From positions 1-50,887 of the forward strand of contig CANGYA010000009.1 in the NCBI GenBank assembly GCA_947457925.1: a DNA stretch of 50,887 bases, read 5' to 3'. The notes beneath the pieces are model-generated. The model was given only the letters and a program-made list of their open reading frames with translations, was not told the origin of the DNA and made no database searches. The stretch comes from Cytophagales bacterium (GTDB lineage: Bacteria > Bacteroidota > Bacteroidia > Cytophagales > Thermoflexibacteraceae). Shown here piece by piece: positions 15 to 9,565 of this stretch. Made by a program: the position numbers and the translations under genes. How positions within the stretch are numbered: the stretch's first letter is position 1; the number at the start of each line of letters is the position of its first letter.

Positions 15-2993
15 ATGAACAAAATTCGCAATCTATGGAGATTGTCATTGACGTTGGCACTTTCCCTATGTTTCACCACTTTACTTTTCGCCCAAAAAAC
101 GGTATCGGGCAAGGTAACAACGAAAGAAGAACCTAATGGCGCGCCAAGTATCACTGTATTAGTAAAAGGTACTACTACAGGTACAATCACAGACATCGAG
201 GGTAACTATAAAATAGCCGTTCCAGACGACAAAGCTATTTTGGTATTCAGTTTCGTAGGCTATAAATCGCAAGAAATTGTGGTGGGTAATCAGACTTCTA
301 TCAATATTGCCTTAGAAGAAGATAACCAACAATTACAAGAAATCGTTGTGGTAGGTTATGGCGTACAAAAGAAAACAGATTTGACAGGCTCAATAACTCG
401 TTTAGGAGAAAAAGACTTGAACGCAGGTACTTTCACAAGCCCCCTACAAAGAATGTCTGGACGTGCAGCAGGTGTAACCATTAACCAAGCAGGTGGAGAG
501 CCGGGTGTAGCTCCTAATGTTCGTATTCGTGGTATCGCAGGTATTACGGGAGCAAGTGACCCTTTAGTGGTAGTAGATGGTATTCAAGGTGGTATGGACT
601 TATTGAACCAAGTACCTCCTACTGAAATAGAATCTTTTGACATCTTGAAAGATGCCTCTGCCACAGCTATTTATGGTGCAAGAGGTGCAGCAGGTGTTAT
701 TTTGGTTACTACAAAAAAAGCTAAACAAGGTAAAACTACTTTAGAGTATAGTGCTGTAGGTTCTTACGAAACTATCTCTAAACGTTATGAAATGCTTACC
801 GCAGACGAGTGGAGAGCCTTGGCAACACAAAGAGGGTTAGACCTTAAATCAACAGATTTTGGTGGCAACACAGATTGGCAAAAACAAGTAACTCGTGATG
901 GTTATACACAAAACCACAATTTATCTATTGGTGGTGGCACATCAGGCTTTAACTACCGTGCTACACTCACAGCTATTGACCAACAAGGTATCATCATTGG
1001 TTCTGGTTATACCAACTATATTGGTCGTTTGCAAATTAGCCAAAAAGCCTTGAATGATAAATTAACTCTTACTTACAATGCTAACGTAGGTTCTGAAGAC
1101 CGCCGTTTTAATAATGCAGATGTAATAGGTACGGCATTAGGCAGAAGACCAACAGACCCTATTTATAGAACAGATGGTACTTATTTCATTGATAATGAGA
1201 TTTTTGGCTATGTAAACCCTTATGCACGTGCCAAAGAAATGGTAGATGGACAAACTTTGTTGAATATGTTTGGTAGTGCAAGAGCAGATTATCAAATTAC
1301 CAAAGATTTAACGGCGAGTGTGTTTGGTTCTTGGCGTAAAACAGATTTGGAGTATGGTCAATTCAAGTCAGTTAAAACAACTTTAGGTGATGCAAGAGAT
1401 AATAAAGGTATTGCTACCAGAGAAACTAAACAAAGTGATGAGCAATTATTCAACGCCATTTTGAGCTACAAGAAAAACTTTGGTGACCACAATTTAGACT
1501 TCACCTTAGTATATGAATGGCAAAAAGCTGTTTATCAAGGCTTCAAAGCCATAGGTCGTAATTTCATCAATGAAGCTACTGCTTTAGATGCTTTACAAAG
1601 TGGTAATATAGCTGATGTACAAGCTGGCGACATTACTTCTTACAAGAATGACCAAACTTTATTGTCTTATTTGGGTAGAGTAAATTATTCTTACAAAGGC
1701 AAATATTTAGCTACTGTAAACTTCCGTAGAGATGCCTCCTCTAAATTTGGTGAAAATAATCGTTGGGCAAACTTCCCTTCTGTGTCATTAGGTTGGCATA
1801 TTTCAGAAGAAGATTTCTTGAAAAAACAGAATATCCTTTCTGATTTGAAACTACGTGCAGGTTTTGGTATCACAGGTAGCCAACAAGCATTAGGAGCATT
1901 AAACTCTGTACGTTTAGTAGGTGTAACAGGTACTACTTATTTTGGTGGTATTATTCCAAGTTTTGGTATCAAACAAAATGCTAATCCAGATTTACGTTGG
2001 GAAACTCGCCAAATGTTTAACGTAGGTTTAGACTTTGCCTTCCTCAACAATAAATTGACTGGTACGATTGACTATTACAATGGCGTAACATCTGATTTAT
2101 TATTCAAATACAGAGTACCACTTCCACCTTTCCCTTACAACGAACTTTTTGCTAACGTAGGTAAAATGCGTAATTCAGGTGTCGAAGTTACATTGAATTA
2201 TGTAGCTATTGACAAAGGAGATTTCAGATTAACATTAGGCGGTAACTTTACCCATAACGCCAATACCATTGAGGAATTAAGTGGCTCTATTGGTGGTGTG
2301 CCTTTGAATGCAGATTATGTACGTTGGGGCGGTGGCGGCACTGTGGGTGTAGCCTCTACAAATGATGCGATGCAATACCTCATCAAAGGTCAGTCTATTG
2401 GTACTTTCTATGTATTTAAACACGCAGGAGTAGATGCAGAAGGCAATCAACTGTTAGATGATATTAATGGAGATGGTGTAGTAGAATCAGGCGACGCTAG
2501 TAAAGACCGTTATATAGCTGGTAATGCCTTACCTATTTTTACTTATGGTTTTACACCTACAGCCAGCTACAAAAACTGGGACTTTGGTATGGTATTAAGA
2601 GGCGTATATGGCAATGATATTTACAATGTTCGTAGGGCTCAATTAAGTGCTTTATCACAATTAGGACAAGGTAACGTTATCAAAGGTGCAGCAGAAACAG
2701 GTATTCGCAATATCTCAAATGCTTCTGACTATTGGATAGAAAAAGGCTCTTATGCTCGTTTGGAAAACCTCTCTATAGGTTACAGATTTAAGACAGAAAA
2801 CTGGAAGTTGATAGAGTCTTTGCGTGTGTCTTTCGTGGCTAACAACTTATTTGTGATTACCAACTACTCTGGCATAGACCCTGAAACTAATATCAACGGT
2901 CAAGACAATGATCGTCGTGGTTTTGGTACAGACTTCGGTTTATATCCTCGTACTCGTAGCTTTGCAGTAGGTTTGAATGTAGCATTCAAGTAA
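15..2993 (+). CDS. SusC/RagA-type TonB-dependent outer-membrane receptor
   Basis: A 992-residue protein with a signal peptide (about 1-26, ending LLFAQ), a carboxypeptidase-D regulatory-like domain (about 28-105; GKVTT..., DIEGNYKI), the VVVGYG stretch typical of SusC plugs, a TonB plug (about 115-235, with VRIRG, PLVVVDG, LKDASATAIYGARGA) and a beta-barrel reaching the C-terminus, which ends in an aromatic-rich strand. SusC proteins form the transport barrel that imports oligosaccharides handed over by the SusD lid, driven by TonB. It is directly followed by SusD- and SusE-like genes, so this is the import end of a polysaccharide-utilisation locus. The start lies 14 bases into the window, so its promoter and any upstream regulator are out of view. 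The substrate cannot be read from this gene alone. Confidence 0.95.
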   Translation: MNKIRNLWRLSLTLALSLCFTTLLFAQKTVSGKVTTKEEPNGAPSITVLVKGTTTGTITDIEGNYKIAVPDDKAILVFSFVGYKSQEIVVGNQTSINIALEEDNQQLQEIVVVGYGVQKKTDLTGSITRLGEKDLNAGTFTSPLQRMSGRAAGVTINQAGGEPGVAPNVRIRGIAGITGASDPLVVVDGIQGGMDLLNQVPPTEIESFDILKDASATAIYGARGAAGVILVTTKKAKQGKTTLEYSAVGSYETISKRYEMLTADEWRALATQRGLDLKSTDFGGNTDWQKQVTRDGYTQNHNLSIGGGTSGFNYRATLTAIDQQGIIIGSGYTNYIGRLQISQKALNDKLTLTYNANVGSEDRRFNNADVIGTALGRRPTDPIYRTDGTYFIDNEIFGYVNPYARAKEMVDGQTLLNMFGSARADYQITKDLTASVFGSWRKTDLEYGQFKSVKTTLGDARDNKGIATRETKQSDEQLFNAILSYKKNFGDHNLDFTLVYEWQKAVYQGFKAIGRNFINEATALDALQSGNIADVQAGDITSYKNDQTLLSYLGRVNYSYKGKYLATVNFRRDASSKFGENNRWANFPSVSLGWHISEEDFLKKQNILSDLKLRAGFGITGSQQALGALNSVRLVGVTGTTYFGGIIPSFGIKQNANPDLRWETRQMFNVGLDFAFLNNKLTGTIDYYNGVTSDLLFKYRVPLPPFPYNELFANVGKMRNSGVEVTLNYVAIDKGDFRLTLGGNFTHNANTIEELSGSIGGVPLNADYVRWGGGGTVGVASTNDAMQYLIKGQSIGTFYVFKHAGVDAEGNQLLDDINGDGVVESGDASKDRYIAGNALPIFTYGFTPTASYKNWDFGMVLRGVYGNDIYNVRRAQLSALSQLGQGNVIKGAAETGIRNISNASDYWIEKGSYARLENLSIGYRFKTENWKLIESLRVSFVANNLFVITNYSGIDPETNINGQDNDRRGFGTDFGLYPRTRSFAVGLNVAFK

Positions 2994-3001
2994 TTTTTCA
3001 C

Positions 3002-3035
3002 TCTACTTCCTCTCTTTTTGGAGAGTAAGTGTAGA
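3002..3035 (+). other. imperfect hairpin between susC- and susD-like genes
   Basis: TCTACTTCCTCTC can pair imperfectly with GAGAGTAAGTGTAGA across a short T-rich loop just after the susC stop. There is no strong trailing T-run. It may be an mRNA processing or attenuation structure that sets the receptor-to-lid ratio; this is inference. Confidence 0.35.
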
Positions 3036-3107
3036 ACTTTAACAGAGTGATAAAAACATTTTCTTTTCACAAATCATTTTCTTAACGAACTATCATAGTT
3101 AGTATAT

Positions 3108-4562
3108 ATGAAAAAATTTCTTTTAACAGCAGCTCTCTTAGGAGCTACTATTTCGGGGTGTACCGTAAAAGAAGGGGTGTATGACCAAGCAGTGGCAGAC
3201 CAATTCTATGCGACCCCAGCAGGTATCAATGCAGCATTAGCTGATCTTTATGGAGAAGTACGTGGCGACTGGGGTGGCAAAGGTATAGCAGGAGCAGATA
3301 GAGGTTGGTTTGATATTAATGAAGTAACCACAGACGAATTGATGTTACCAACAAGAGCAGACGGAGCATGGGACGACAACGGTATTTGGCGACAACTCTA
3401 CAGACATGAGTTTGACGCTGGACAAGAAATGATTAATAATACATGGAATTGGTTATATAGGTCTGTATATAAGTCTAATTTGGCTATCGAACTATTAACA
3501 AAAGCTAATGCAAACCCTGAAAGAATAGCAGAAGCAAGAGTATTACGTGCCTATTTCTACTATATGTTGATGGACGGTTGGGGCAATATTCCCTTCTATA
3601 CAGATATTAGTGTAACAGTAGATAAAATACCTCAAACAGACCGTAAAACCGTGTATGATTTTGTAGTAAAAGAGTTAAAAGAAAACATAGACAAATTGCC
3701 AACTACTAAAGGTGGAGAAGAGTTTTATGGTCGTTTTAACCGTTGGGCTGGTTATGCCTTGTTAGCAAAAGTGTATTTGAATGCACAAGTCTATACAGGT
3801 ACGCCACAATGGGCAGAGGCATCATCTGCTTGTGATAAAATCATCAATGAAGGTGGCTTTAGCTTAGTTGCAGACTATATGACCTTAGCTGGTGACCGTT
3901 GTCCTGATACAGAAGTTATTTTAGCTGTTTTCGTAGATGGTAACGTAGCCCCACGTAATATTATTGGTATCCGCAGTTTGAGAGGCTCACATGGCAAGGC
4001 ATTATTTGGTTTTGATACTTGGAATGGTGCTACAGCCCATCAAAACTTTGTGAATAAGTATGACAATGCAGATAAACGCAAGGCACAGTGGATTACTGGT
4101 TCGCAACCCGGTGGTGTAAATTACACCTTAAATCTTAGTTCATTGACAAGTGCAGGTGTAGAAGAAGGTGCAAGAAATATTAAATATTTTCCTGTAGCTC
4201 CTTACAATGGTGGTACTTCTTCTAATGACTTCCCTGTGTTCCGTTATGCAGATGTGTTATTGATGAAAGCAGAGGCTTTAGCTCGCCAAGGTAATACAAG
4301 TGGTGCAGCACCATTGGTAAACCAAGTACGTTCAAGAGCTGGTTTAGCTGCTATTACGTCAGTAACTTTGGAAGAAATTTATGACGAGAGAGGACGTGAA
4401 TTGTGTTGGGAAGGACACCGCCGTCAAGACATGATACGTTTCGGTACGTTTACCTTAGCACATGACTTTAAGCCTGCAAGTGATGCCAAGTATCGTTTAT
4501 TCCCGATACCTGCTCCAGCACTATCTACGAATACAAATTTGAAACAAAATCCCGGTTATTAA
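3108..4562 (+). CDS. SusD/RagB-family glycan-binding outer-membrane lipoprotein
   Basis: A 484-residue lipoprotein: signal peptide with lipobox ISGC (Cys about residue 18), then a SusD fold. Diagnostic stretches are the TPR-type helix EARVLRAYFYYMLMDGWGNIPFYTD (middle) and the conserved C-terminal region with LEEIYDERGRELCWEGHRRQDMIRF followed by LFPIPAPALSTNTNLKQNPGY. SusD proteins sit on the cell surface as the lid of the SusC barrel and bind the glycan. It lies about 115 bases after the susC-like gene in the same direction, so the two are probably co-transcribed. Family assignment is firm; the ligand is not known from sequence. Confidence 0.95.
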   Translation: MKKFLLTAALLGATISGCTVKEGVYDQAVADQFYATPAGINAALADLYGEVRGDWGGKGIAGADRGWFDINEVTTDELMLPTRADGAWDDNGIWRQLYRHEFDAGQEMINNTWNWLYRSVYKSNLAIELLTKANANPERIAEARVLRAYFYYMLMDGWGNIPFYTDISVTVDKIPQTDRKTVYDFVVKELKENIDKLPTTKGGEEFYGRFNRWAGYALLAKVYLNAQVYTGTPQWAEASSACDKIINEGGFSLVADYMTLAGDRCPDTEVILAVFVDGNVAPRNIIGIRSLRGSHGKALFGFDTWNGATAHQNFVNKYDNADKRKAQWITGSQPGGVNYTLNLSSLTSAGVEEGARNIKYFPVAPYNGGTSSNDFPVFRYADVLLMKAEALARQGNTSGAAPLVNQVRSRAGLAAITSVTLEEIYDERGRELCWEGHRRQDMIRFGTFTLAHDFKPASDAKYRLFPIPAPALSTNTNLKQNPGY

Positions 4563-4572
4563 TGTAATGAAA

Positions 4573-4612
4573 CCTTACAAAGAACAGAACTGTTCTTTGT
4601 AAGGGCTTTTTT
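4573..4612 (+). terminator. Rho-independent terminator or attenuator between susD and susE
   Basis: A perfect 15-bp stem (CCTTACAAAGAACAG paired with CTGTTCTTTGTAAGG, loop AA) is followed by GCTTTTTT. It starts 10 bases after the susD stop, while the next gene continues in the same direction, so it probably reduces rather than abolishes read-through into the SusE-like gene. Confidence 0.8.
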
Positions 4613-4654
4613 CCCAATCATTATACCTTAATCAAACTTATCGATAAATTGAAT

Positions 4655-6073
4655 ATGAAAAAATATTTTAAATTTTCAGCCTTAGCATTCAGCACTTTGC
4701 TGCTAATTACGGGTTGTGCAAAAGATAGCGTAGCCCCAACGATTGAGGGAGTAGCTATTATGGATTACGATTTAGTCCAAATTACGAATGACACACCCAA
4801 TATGCCTATCAATATCAAAGCTAATGATAATGATAAGCTAAGTTCTTTGAGCATTAAAGTAATGCCTGATGGTGGTTCTTCGGTAACAGCTTCGCAAGAA
4901 ATTAAAAACATGACAGCAAGCAGTTTGGCGAGGACTTCTATCAACATTCCGTTTCCAATAGCAGAAAAAGCTCCTTCGGGCTTATATACAGTAGAATATA
5001 CATTGACGGATGCAGCAGGTAATAAAAGTACAAAGTCTTACAAAGTCAATGTATTGAACTACCAGACCGCAAGAGTAGAAAAATGCGAATTTCCTGCGGT
5101 TTCGTTACCTGCGGGCAGAAACGTAACTTTCTTTGTTACTGCACCTGCCAATACAGAAGGAGATTTGTATGTATCTGGTAATATGGAGCAGGCAGCAGGT
5201 GGTACTGGCGACTGGACAGGTGGCGGTACGGCAGCCTTGAAACTAACGAAAGTAAGCAATACTTGTTACTACATACACTTGAACCTTACCAATGCCTCTG
5301 AATTTAAGATAACAAGAGGTGAGTGGGGCAAAGTAATGAAAACAGCTACAGGCGAGGAGGCAGATAACTTGAAGTGGGCAGGACAAGCCACCCAAAGTGT
5401 AACTGTACAAAACTGGGCTGATAGAGTTACTTTACCGCCTGTTACACTACCTAAGTCGGCTATTGAAACCAATAAATTGACTGTAGTAGCTGATGTAAAG
5501 AATAACGATGCTGCCAAATATTATTTGGTGAAGAAAGGAGCTACCTCATTGACAGGGGCAATACCAATGGAAAGAGTAGTAAGTAGCACCAAATTGGCGG
5601 CGGCTGTTCCTCGCGAAACAGGTGCTGAATATGTATTGGTGAAAGACAATGTAGCTTCTGTGGGTGTAAATGCTTATGGTTATGAACAAGTAGCTTCTTG
5701 GGACGGCAAAACCAACCCAGTAAATCTAATCGTTGATGCTTACAAAGGCTCTGCACCTTTATTAAGTAATAACCAAAGATTGTTTATTGTAGGTGCTGCC
5801 ACCGAAGGCGGTTGGAACAACCCTGTGCCAGCTAACCAAGAGTTTACGAGAGTGGCAGAAGGAAAATTTGAATTGACCATTACCCTCAAAAAAGAAGAAT
5901 ACTTACTATTGCCTGTAAATGGTGATTGGGGTTTTAAGTGGGGTATGGCAGGCTCGAATCCATTGGCGGGTAATGTAAATTGGCAAGGTGCCAATTTTAG
6001 AGCCCCAGATGCGGGTCGTTTTAAAATAGAAGTAGATTTTTTCAGAGGTACTTACAAATTGACAAGACAATAA
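4655..6073 (+). CDS. SusE/SusF-like surface glycan-binding lipoprotein
   Basis: A 472-residue lipoprotein starting at ATG 4655 (an in-frame TTG lies 6 bases upstream). The lipobox is LITGC. An N-terminal Ig-like domain (about 25-135; VEYTLTDAAGNKSTKSY) precedes a region resembling a starch-binding CBM fold (about 145-245; RNVTFFVTAPANTEGDLYVSGNM..W), then a linker region and a C-terminal domain of the SusE/SusF type (about 370-472; LFIVGAATEGGWNNP...FKWGMAGSNPLAGNVNWQGANF...YKL). These proteins bind glycan at the surface beside SusCD. The CBM20-like look hints at an alpha-glucan substrate, which is inference. No glycoside hydrolase is visible downstream; one could lie upstream of the window. 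Confidence 0.85.
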   Translation: MKKYFKFSALAFSTLLLITGCAKDSVAPTIEGVAIMDYDLVQITNDTPNMPINIKANDNDKLSSLSIKVMPDGGSSVTASQEIKNMTASSLARTSINIPFPIAEKAPSGLYTVEYTLTDAAGNKSTKSYKVNVLNYQTARVEKCEFPAVSLPAGRNVTFFVTAPANTEGDLYVSGNMEQAAGGTGDWTGGGTAALKLTKVSNTCYYIHLNLTNASEFKITRGEWGKVMKTATGEEADNLKWAGQATQSVTVQNWADRVTLPPVTLPKSAIETNKLTVVADVKNNDAAKYYLVKKGATSLTGAIPMERVVSSTKLAAAVPRETGAEYVLVKDNVASVGVNAYGYEQVASWDGKTNPVNLIVDAYKGSAPLLSNNQRLFIVGAATEGGWNNPVPANQEFTRVAEGKFELTITLKKEEYLLLPVNGDWGFKWGMAGSNPLAGNVNWQGANFRAPDAGRFKIEVDFFRGTYKLTRQ

Positions 6074-6077
6074 AATT

Positions 6078-6141
6078 AAAGTAGCTAACAAAAAAAGATG
6101 ACATCTATAAAAAGATGTCATCTTTTTTTGTTAGCTACTTT
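6078..6141. terminator. 29-bp perfect bidirectional terminator hairpin
   Basis: Arms 6078-6106 and 6113-6141 are perfectly complementary over 29 bp with a 6-base loop. A run of seven A in the left arm and seven T in the right arm gives a T-tract on either strand, so it can end transcription of both the SusE-like gene and the convergent lipoprotein gene, whose stop lies 13 bases away. Confidence 0.85.
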
Positions 6142-6153
6142 GATATGATTTAT

Positions 6154-7365
6154 CTAATCATGTCCTTTGCTTGTTTCTGTACCTACAATAGTAATGCTAC
6201 TAGGAGAACCACCCACAGCTAATTTTGTAATGCTTTTTAAGTTACTACTTTGTACTTGTAAAACTTCGCCTGTGTTAGGTTGTGTGATATAAATATATTT
6301 TTGAGTAGCAACAAGTTGTGGTTTAGTAGTAGAAGTTTTTTCAGTAGCCCCTATTACCACGTCCTTAGCTTTTAATAAGCCATTAGCTAAATTGTAAATA
6401 TGCAACTCCCCACTATGTAATAGTACAATTAAGTTAGCCCCAGCATAATCTACCTTACACTGCATAATATCTGTACTTGTTATAATAGGAGTTATTTTAT
6501 CTGTGGTTGCATCAATAAAATAAGCTCCTTTGGCGGCTGTATAACCAATGAACTTATTGGCTTGTGCAGCTTCTAAAATAGTACCAAACCATGCCGTTCC
6601 AAAATCTGTAGGATGCGGAATTAACTTTTGAGTGCCGTCATTATTCACGACTAAAACACCACTTGCAGAACCAAAGATAGCTACCTTACCATTTGTAGCA
6701 TTTCCATGAATACCTTTGGTTTGAACAGTAGAAACATGGAGAGTTTTGCCATTGGTATCCATGATTTTTACTCTTTCGGGAAGAGAACCTGCCACAGAAC
6801 CATCTTTTTCTGTAATAGCATAATTGCCATTGTCAAATTTTGCCATAGCTCCATGATGAGCTTTATTGCCTGTTTGGATAGTTTTCAATTGGATACCTGC
6901 CGTATGAAAATCATTTTCGTTAGCTATGCTCAATGTCCCATCTCCATCATTAAATACTGCCACTTCGCTACCATGCGACTTAAAATGGGTTGGTAAGGCA
7001 CTATTCCCAACAAAAGCACCAAACTTAGGTGTACCCTTCACATCAACATGGTCAGAATGCCTCTCAAAACCAGTATCAAAAGTTTCTACGGTATTGTCTG
7101 CTCGATGTATAATCACAGCAAATCTTCCTGACTCGGTAGTATAAAGAGCAGATTTTACAAACTTAGCATTAAAGGCACTAATTTTATTTGTTTGAGGAGT
7201 GATTAATGATAAACGATTCGTTGTGTTATCACTTACCAAAAGATTAATGAATTTGTATTCTCTGTTGTCTTCTGGGGCTGTTTCTTCGCTTTTTTGACAA
7301 GCCACAAAAAAAGAGGCACTTAATGCCAATAAAGAAAACCTAAAAATAGATTTTTGTTTGAACAT
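6154..7365 (-). CDS. AztD-like zinc-binding beta-propeller lipoprotein
   Basis: A 403-residue lipoprotein; the start at ATG 7365 gives MFKQKSIFRFSLLALSASFFVAC with lipobox FVAC, whereas the longer ORF adds 18 residues lacking signal character. The body is a repeated beta-propeller-like protein with histidine clusters: HSDHVDV, PTHFKSHGSEVAVFNDGDGT, KAHHGAMAKF and KGIHGNATNGKVAIFGSASGVLVV. That order of His motifs and the FxDGDGT and GIHG phrases recall AztD, the periplasmic zinc metallochaperone that hands zinc to the AztC binding protein. The azt ABC genes are not in the window, so a stand-alone zinc-binding or zinc-sensing surface role is also possible. Two palindromes upstream suggest metal-dependent control. 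The family call is moderately sure; the role is inferred. Confidence 0.65.
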   Translation of the reverse strand: MFKQKSIFRFSLLALSASFFVACQKSEETAPEDNREYKFINLLVSDNTTNRLSLITPQTNKISAFNAKFVKSALYTTESGRFAVIIHRADNTVETFDTGFERHSDHVDVKGTPKFGAFVGNSALPTHFKSHGSEVAVFNDGDGTLSIANENDFHTAGIQLKTIQTGNKAHHGAMAKFDNGNYAITEKDGSVAGSLPERVKIMDTNGKTLHVSTVQTKGIHGNATNGKVAIFGSASGVLVVNNDGTQKLIPHPTDFGTAWFGTILEAAQANKFIGYTAAKGAYFIDATTDKITPIITSTDIMQCKVDYAGANLIVLLHSGELHIYNLANGLLKAKDVVIGATEKTSTTKPQLVATQKYIYITQPNTGEVLQVQSSNLKSITKLAVGGSPSSITIVGTETSKGHD

Positions 7366-7391: not shown

Positions 7392-7446
7392 TGCAACAAT
7401 GTTGCAAATATAGAGTCATTGTTAGTAAAAATGCAACAATGTTGTA
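7392..7446 (-). promoter_or_regulatory. tandem 15-bp palindromic operators upstream of the AztD-like gene
   Basis: TGCAACAATGTTGCA at 7392-7406 is a perfect palindrome around one central base. A second copy at 7432-7446 (TGCAACAATGTTGTA) has one mismatched pair. They are 40 bp apart start to start, close to four helical turns. The first lies 26 bases from the start codon, where a repressor would block transcription. The 7-1-7 geometry is Fur/Zur-like and the gene is probably zinc-related, so a Zur-type repressor is the best guess; the regulator itself is not visible. Confidence 0.6.
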
Positions 7447-9406: not shown

Positions 9407-9565
9407 ATGCAACAAGATAAACTATTCCAATCTGCCCAAAAGATTTCTATTTTGAAAGCAAACACACCTTGCGAACTGTCTGCTTGCGTTTTATTGTGTA
9501 AGAAAAAAGACTGTTGCAAAAAATACAAAAAAGGGAAAAGATGTAAAAGTTGTCCTGATAGGTAG
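9407..9565 (+). CDS. small Cys/Lys-rich protein, 52 residues
   Basis: An open frame from ATG 9407 to TAG 9565 encodes MQQDKLFQSAQKISILKANT followed by a basic, Cys-rich tail with eight cysteines: PCELSAC, LLCKKKDCCKKYKKG and KRCKSCPDR. The tail CCKKYxKGKRCKxCP resembles a short conserved sequence I recall from other Bacteroidota genomes, usually annotated as hypothetical. The spacing of Cys pairs suggests a metal (Zn or Fe-S) or redox site, and the lysines could bind nucleic acid; both are inference. It has its own promoter-like motif after a terminator and lies between two DUF3592-type genes. It is not an obvious remnant of a larger gene. Confidence 0.6.
   Translation: MQQDKLFQSAQKISILKANTPCELSACVLLCKKKDCCKKYKKGKRCKSCPDR

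Follow-up and report, generated by a model that had tools for sequence, protein, structure and literature searches.

The twin palindromes upstream of an AztD-like gene in the window, the whole 50,887-nucleotide stretch of DNA analyzed here, are very probably zinc-repressor sites, since they lie on the promoter of that gene and recur in front of zinc-uptake genes in relatives. We consider it highly likely that they represent lineage-specific Zur operators of the Cytophagales that repress by promoter occlusion, a reading in which we infer binding, the zinc signal and repression from sequence. The recurrence of the site, its target genes, its conservation, its overlap with promoter elements and the presence of a Zur-like protein were computed directly. 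The window corresponds to contig C9 of a host genome of 4.86 Mb in 329 contigs.

Table 1 Features of the AztD-like locus and its upstream region (window coordinates).
Feature	Position	Strand	Remarks
Inverted repeat, likely terminator	6069..6150	.	Arms of 38 nt with 92% complementarity, where the AztD-like gene ends
AztD-like lipoprotein gene	6154..7365	-	403 aa, Cys23 lipobox, beta-propeller, AztD zinc ligands kept
Proximal box TGCAACAATGTTGCA, perfect palindrome	7392..7406	.	26 bp upstream of start codon; kept in orthologues
Predicted transcription start, inside proximal box	7400	-	Deduced from the -7 element, taken to cover -12 to -5
Predicted -7 element TATATTTG	7405..7412	-	Fits TAnnTTTG; last two bases (TG) common to the proximal box
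Distal box TGCAACAATGTTGTA, 1 mismatch	7432..7446	.	66 bp upstream of start codon
TTG inside distal box, possible -33 element	7434..7436	-	21 nt 5' of the -7 element

A sequence-only reading of this DNA had described two near-identical 15-bp palindromes, 40 bp apart from start to start, next to the beginning of an AztD-like gene, and both points were confirmed (Table 1). The consensus of the boxes, TGCAACA-N-TGTTGCA, is dyad-symmetric in a 7-1-7 arrangement, as in Fur-type sites. The longest open reading frame of the gene begins at 7419, beyond the proximal box. We rejected this start, as the proximal box would then be translated and MFKQKS at 7365 opens a proper lipoprotein signal. The signal peptide and the lipobox point to the ATG at 7365 as the true start, which places the boxes at the upstream distances listed. 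The gene lies between proC on one side and a SusCD-type cluster on the other. The glycan-uptake locus at positions 15-6073 of the window is of an ordinary kind, with a SusC/SusD pair and a third gene of surface-lipoprotein-like type, and a small Cys-rich open reading frame at about 9407-9565 carries, by eye, CCKKYKKGKRCKSCP near its end.

By the AztD-like protein, the nearest named records come from Thermoflexibacter ruber and from two MAGs, one of Cytophagales and one of Bernardetia. The protein scores 93.7 bits against the AztD profile NF038015, below the curated cut-off of 400, and no aztABC importer genes adjoin it; we therefore call it AztD-like rather than AztD. It also matches AztD sequences in the PDB, and its structure model aligns with the AztD structures 6CK1 and 6CMK at a TM-score of 0.79. 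The zinc-site ligands of AztD, taken from the accessible part of PMC6689063, map by sequence alignment to H103, H106, D108 and the C-terminal H402, and to H127, H170 or H171, and H220. All of these mapped residues are invariant in 17 aligned relatives, while D108 and the C-terminal His are variable in a wider set of 14. The earlier description of the gene as AztD-like is supported, with the known AztD zinc ligands kept.

To judge the frequency of the box against chance, we used the reversed pattern, counted in the same genomes, as control. Within the window, the motif at 2 mismatches was found 5 times, with 3.46 occurrences expected from shuffles; this is no excess over chance, and the argument therefore depends on the strict form and its recurrence. 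Across the host genome, exact TGCAAYANTRTTGCA occurs at 6 sites (control 0), and at up to 2 mismatches at 128 sites (control 43), while 23 sites fit TGCAACNNNGTTGCA with no more than 1 mismatch (control 3). Among 39 relatives, 20 genomes contain exact TGCAAYANTRTTGCA, at 48 sites in total (control 1). Of 194 genomes of the order, 94 contain it, at 238 sites in total (control 6). A narrower form, TGCAACANTGTTGCA, is present in 12 of 296 genomes phylum-wide, which makes the box largely a property of the Cytophagales and agrees with its initial description as a lineage-specific site.

The six exact host sites belong to four promoters, those of the AztD-like gene, a COG0523 GTPase, a His-rich lipoprotein and a secreted M43 metalloprotease, and the genes behind three of the four are of a zinc-linked type. 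The His-rich lipoprotein has two exact sites 27 bp apart; those of the M43 metalloprotease lie 24 bp apart, the nearer one 169 bp from the start. At 1 or 2 mismatches to the consensus, sites are located before a TonB receptor, 7 bp upstream of a ZIP transporter and in the intergenic region between a second COG0523 gene and an M4 protease; other host sites with 1 or 2 mismatches are intragenic and probably due to chance. As the earlier reading would predict, the motif recurs near other zinc genes of the host, namely the two COG0523 genes, the ZIP transporter, the TonB receptor and the His-rich lipoprotein, besides the AztD-like gene itself. The host's only ZnuA-family gene (contig C37) has no box with fewer than 3 mismatches, which counts against an assignment to Zur. 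Two secreted zinc metalloproteases are boxed in the host, the M43 enzyme (L023:9282-11571, G000:C31) and the M4 enzyme beside the COG0523 gene (L026:1-4104, G000:C117), and in one relative (G021, L092) a His-rich M43-type start lies behind a box at a gap of 378 bp. Secreted zinc proteases under zinc repression would be unusual.

The same association with zinc genes holds in relatives when homologues are picked regardless of the box. Within the order, 17 of 18 AztD-like genes carry a box at up to 1 mismatch, the exception being in G191, and 16 of the 18 carry the pair. A box precedes the TonB receptor in 24 of 30 examined cases (127 genomes with a match) and the COG0523 gene in 17 of 27 (30 fetched out of 69 genomes with a match), with reversed controls of 0 for both. 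The other 10 COG0523 genes have no box at up to 1 mismatch within 410 bp, which speaks against Zur. Of 79 AztD-like genes from named genomes, 35 are boxed directly upstream, nearly all of them from Cytophagales by record title, and 34 of the 79 have the pair; in some other named loci, the box heads the operon (e.g., L293, L303 and L321). The 44 named genes with no box directly upstream, mostly from Flavobacterium, likewise weigh against the Zur assignment, and most Flavobacterium loci have no box in the upstream stretch examined. An alternative palindrome for the Flavobacterium-type genes was sought in 44 upstream stretches and none was recurrent; the gene there is mostly intra-operon.

Starting from the sites instead, we collected 34 regions and 59 further regions, which gave 113 exact sites in 100 site groups among the matches listed. 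Among these matches, 91 of the 100 groups lie within 300 bp upstream of an open reading frame start (28% for random positions) and 8 lie inside open reading frames. Compared with a downstream reference gene set that was picked after inspecting the sites, and again among the matches listed, 12 groups precede a TonB receptor, 10 an AztD-like gene, 10 a MerC-like gene, 9 a COG0523 gene, 5 a lipoprotein of the His-rich type, 5 a Fur-family gene and 3 FolE. For 49 of the 100 listed groups there is no downstream match in the reference set, a further point against Zur. Known Zur regulons include COG0523, ZIP, TonB receptor and folE genes among their targets. The boxed FolE (GTP cyclohydrolase I) genes, found in three relatives (L116, L171 and L193), fit the prediction of a zinc-sparing logic. 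Among the 49 unmatched groups, seven oxidoreductases of one type were recognized by eye from their starts. They are thioredoxin-reductase-like (IIIGGSYAGLSAA; L087, L153, L162, L173, L176, L179 and L199), and one of the seven is assigned to Pyr_redox_2 by Pfam.

The His-rich-type lipoprotein family has no Pfam domain and carries paired boxes (L022:4160-4756, L098, L109, L184 and L197; alignment A2). This family has ELITTV and DLDGxG motifs, and the N-terminus of the host member is His-rich. Its structure model is beta-rich with a mean pLDDT of 84, and a fold search with it returned no PDB match at E<0.001.

The host has two Fur-family genes, on contigs C204 and C2. The C204 protein matches the PDB sequences 7NE9 (2e-7) and 4MTD (1e-5), the latter of which we take to be the Zur structure from E. 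coli. One His and one Cys of the C204 protein align with E. coli Zur, presumably at zinc-sensing ligands, and by similarity and aligned residues only the protein is Zur-like. A relative of C204 is present in 89 of 94 box-bearing genomes and in 53 of 100 box-less genomes, a comparison that ignores descent and to which small genomes without either contribute. The 53 genomes with a C204 relative and no exact box count against Zur. Autoregulation of the host-type gene was rejected, as no box was found in the 29 homologues checked, a result that likewise counts against Zur. At gaps of 13 to 644 bp, C204 relatives adjoin a TonB receptor in seven genomes of two genera (G159, G073, G127, G183, G139, G143 and G118).

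Five relatives have a box before another, divergent Fur-family gene, which is not a C204 orthologue where checked by hand; these boxes suggest autoregulated relatives. Together with the presence of two Fur-family genes in the host, they lend some weight to the idea that the box is the operator of another Fur-family protein, either the iron-type paralogue C2 or the second Fur-type protein, and answers to a different or additional metal signal. We regard this as unlikely, however, because the boxed genes are of zinc type (COG0523, ZIP and AztD-like), no gene among the host's boxed set, TonB receptors left aside, was identified as an iron-uptake gene, and C2 lacks the Zur-like Cys. It is highly improbable that the box serves a dimeric regulator from outside the Fur family that responds to envelope or metal stress: symmetry alone identifies no regulator family and MerC-like and thioredoxin-reductase-like genes are among those boxed, but every classified boxed regulator gene is of the Fur family, and the 7-1-7 layout and the co-occurrence with a Zur-like protein point the same way.

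The Bacteroidota promoter has a -7 consensus of TAnnTTTG and a -33 element of TTTG, according to the accessible text of PMC7366714 and PMC6847099. On the gene strand, TATATT lies directly 5' of the proximal box and, joined to its first bases, yields an octamer of the Bacteroidota primary-sigma -7 type (Table 1). Of 35 boxed named orthologues, 32 have TAnnTT directly before the proximal box, and among the matches listed this sequence directly precedes 32 of 113 sites, compared with 1 to 11 at other offsets. That the proximal palindrome acts as a leader RNA hairpin or attenuator is very unlikely; a simple scan does mark 7406-7392 as terminator-like (a stem of 6, then a T-run), yet the -7 element would place the start inside the palindrome, so that only half of it would be transcribed, and the box is found as spaced pairs and at varied distances from genes.

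The spacing of the twins is 38 or 40 bp in 27 of 34 pairs before named-genome AztD-like genes, which puts the TTG of the distal box 19 or 21 nt upstream of the -7 element, at a possible position for a -33 element. The geometry had first been read as suited to cooperative binding by a Fur or Zur dimer. Cooperativity may not be the sole reason for twin boxes, since the dominant spacing fits the -33 and -7 elements at least as well. A second class of twins, spaced by 27-29 bp, exists too; it misfits promoter geometry and may reflect dimer-dimer contacts. With both boxes on promoter elements, occlusion by Zur is the simplest mechanism. When zinc is sufficient, zinc-loaded Zur dimers would occupy both boxes, the one at the proximal box covering the -7 element and the predicted start (about 7400) and the one at the distal box covering the -33 region, and RNA polymerase would be blocked. 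Upon a drop in zinc, Zur would release the DNA and the AztD-like lipoprotein would be made, along with a co-derepressed regulon of TonB receptor, COG0523 GTPase, ZIP transporter and His-rich lipoprotein for zinc capture at the envelope.

A more tentative suggestion, which we put forward as possible, is that the box marks a zinc regulon of Cytophagales and some neighbours with an ABC-free uptake route at its core. A surface-anchored AztD-like propeller lipoprotein would capture zinc and hand it to the co-regulated TonB receptor, in the way that BtuG handles B12, and a MerC-like or ZIP protein would carry it across the inner membrane. This idea draws on the residues at the lipidated Cys, CQKSEE, which resemble the surface-export consensus QKDDE, and on operons such as L321, which combines MerC, COG0523, a His-rich-type lipoprotein, the AztD-like gene and a TonB receptor. 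A TonB receptor of the boxed type adjoins the AztD-like gene in 41 of 80 named loci, and a His-rich-type lipoprotein does so in 12 of 80.

In the literature searched, with subscription papers and RegPrecise outside its scope, we did not find a description of this version of a Zur site, nor of any Zur box for Bacteroidetes/Bacteroidota including Flavobacterium. The accessible text of the reviews PMC6103462 and PMC8000910 contains none of the Bacteroidetes names tried, that of PMC2770081 mentions the group in one line on a Cytophaga UreG, and the accessible parts of PMC11960050, PMC9976891, PMC12574912 and PMC4222909 contain no Zur box. The box would provide a searchable zinc-starvation signal for an order for which we found no described Zur box. 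It allows candidate zinc-regulated genes to be listed in any Cytophagales genome, and several unnamed lipoproteins, receptors and secreted metalloproteases become linked to zinc.

The dyad-symmetric 7-1-7 layout is a recognized one for Zur boxes and is common to the Cytophagales box and those of other phyla, whereas the review motif TRWNAYRWTATAWYRTNWCA is unlike the Cytophagales arm TGCAACA (both from the accessible text of PMC6103462). The regulons differ as well, with MerC-like, AztD-like and His-rich lipoprotein genes as targets here and no ABC zinc importer seen. With AztD of the AztABCD system (6CK1 and 6CMK; accessible part of PMC6689063), the host protein has in common the fold, both sets of zinc-site ligands and, probably, a zinc-linked regulation. 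In contrast to AztD, it is a lipoprotein, falls below the NCBIfam cut-off, is not accompanied by aztABC and in relatives often stands beside a TonB receptor. In this last respect it resembles the BtuG-type surface propeller lipoproteins of Bacteroides (8BMX chain D), which are likewise paired with a TonB receptor, although the fold match to 8BMX chain D (TM-score 0.51) is generic for propellers. The ligand of BtuG is B12, whereas that of the AztD-like protein would be zinc, with the TonB receptor as its putative partner.
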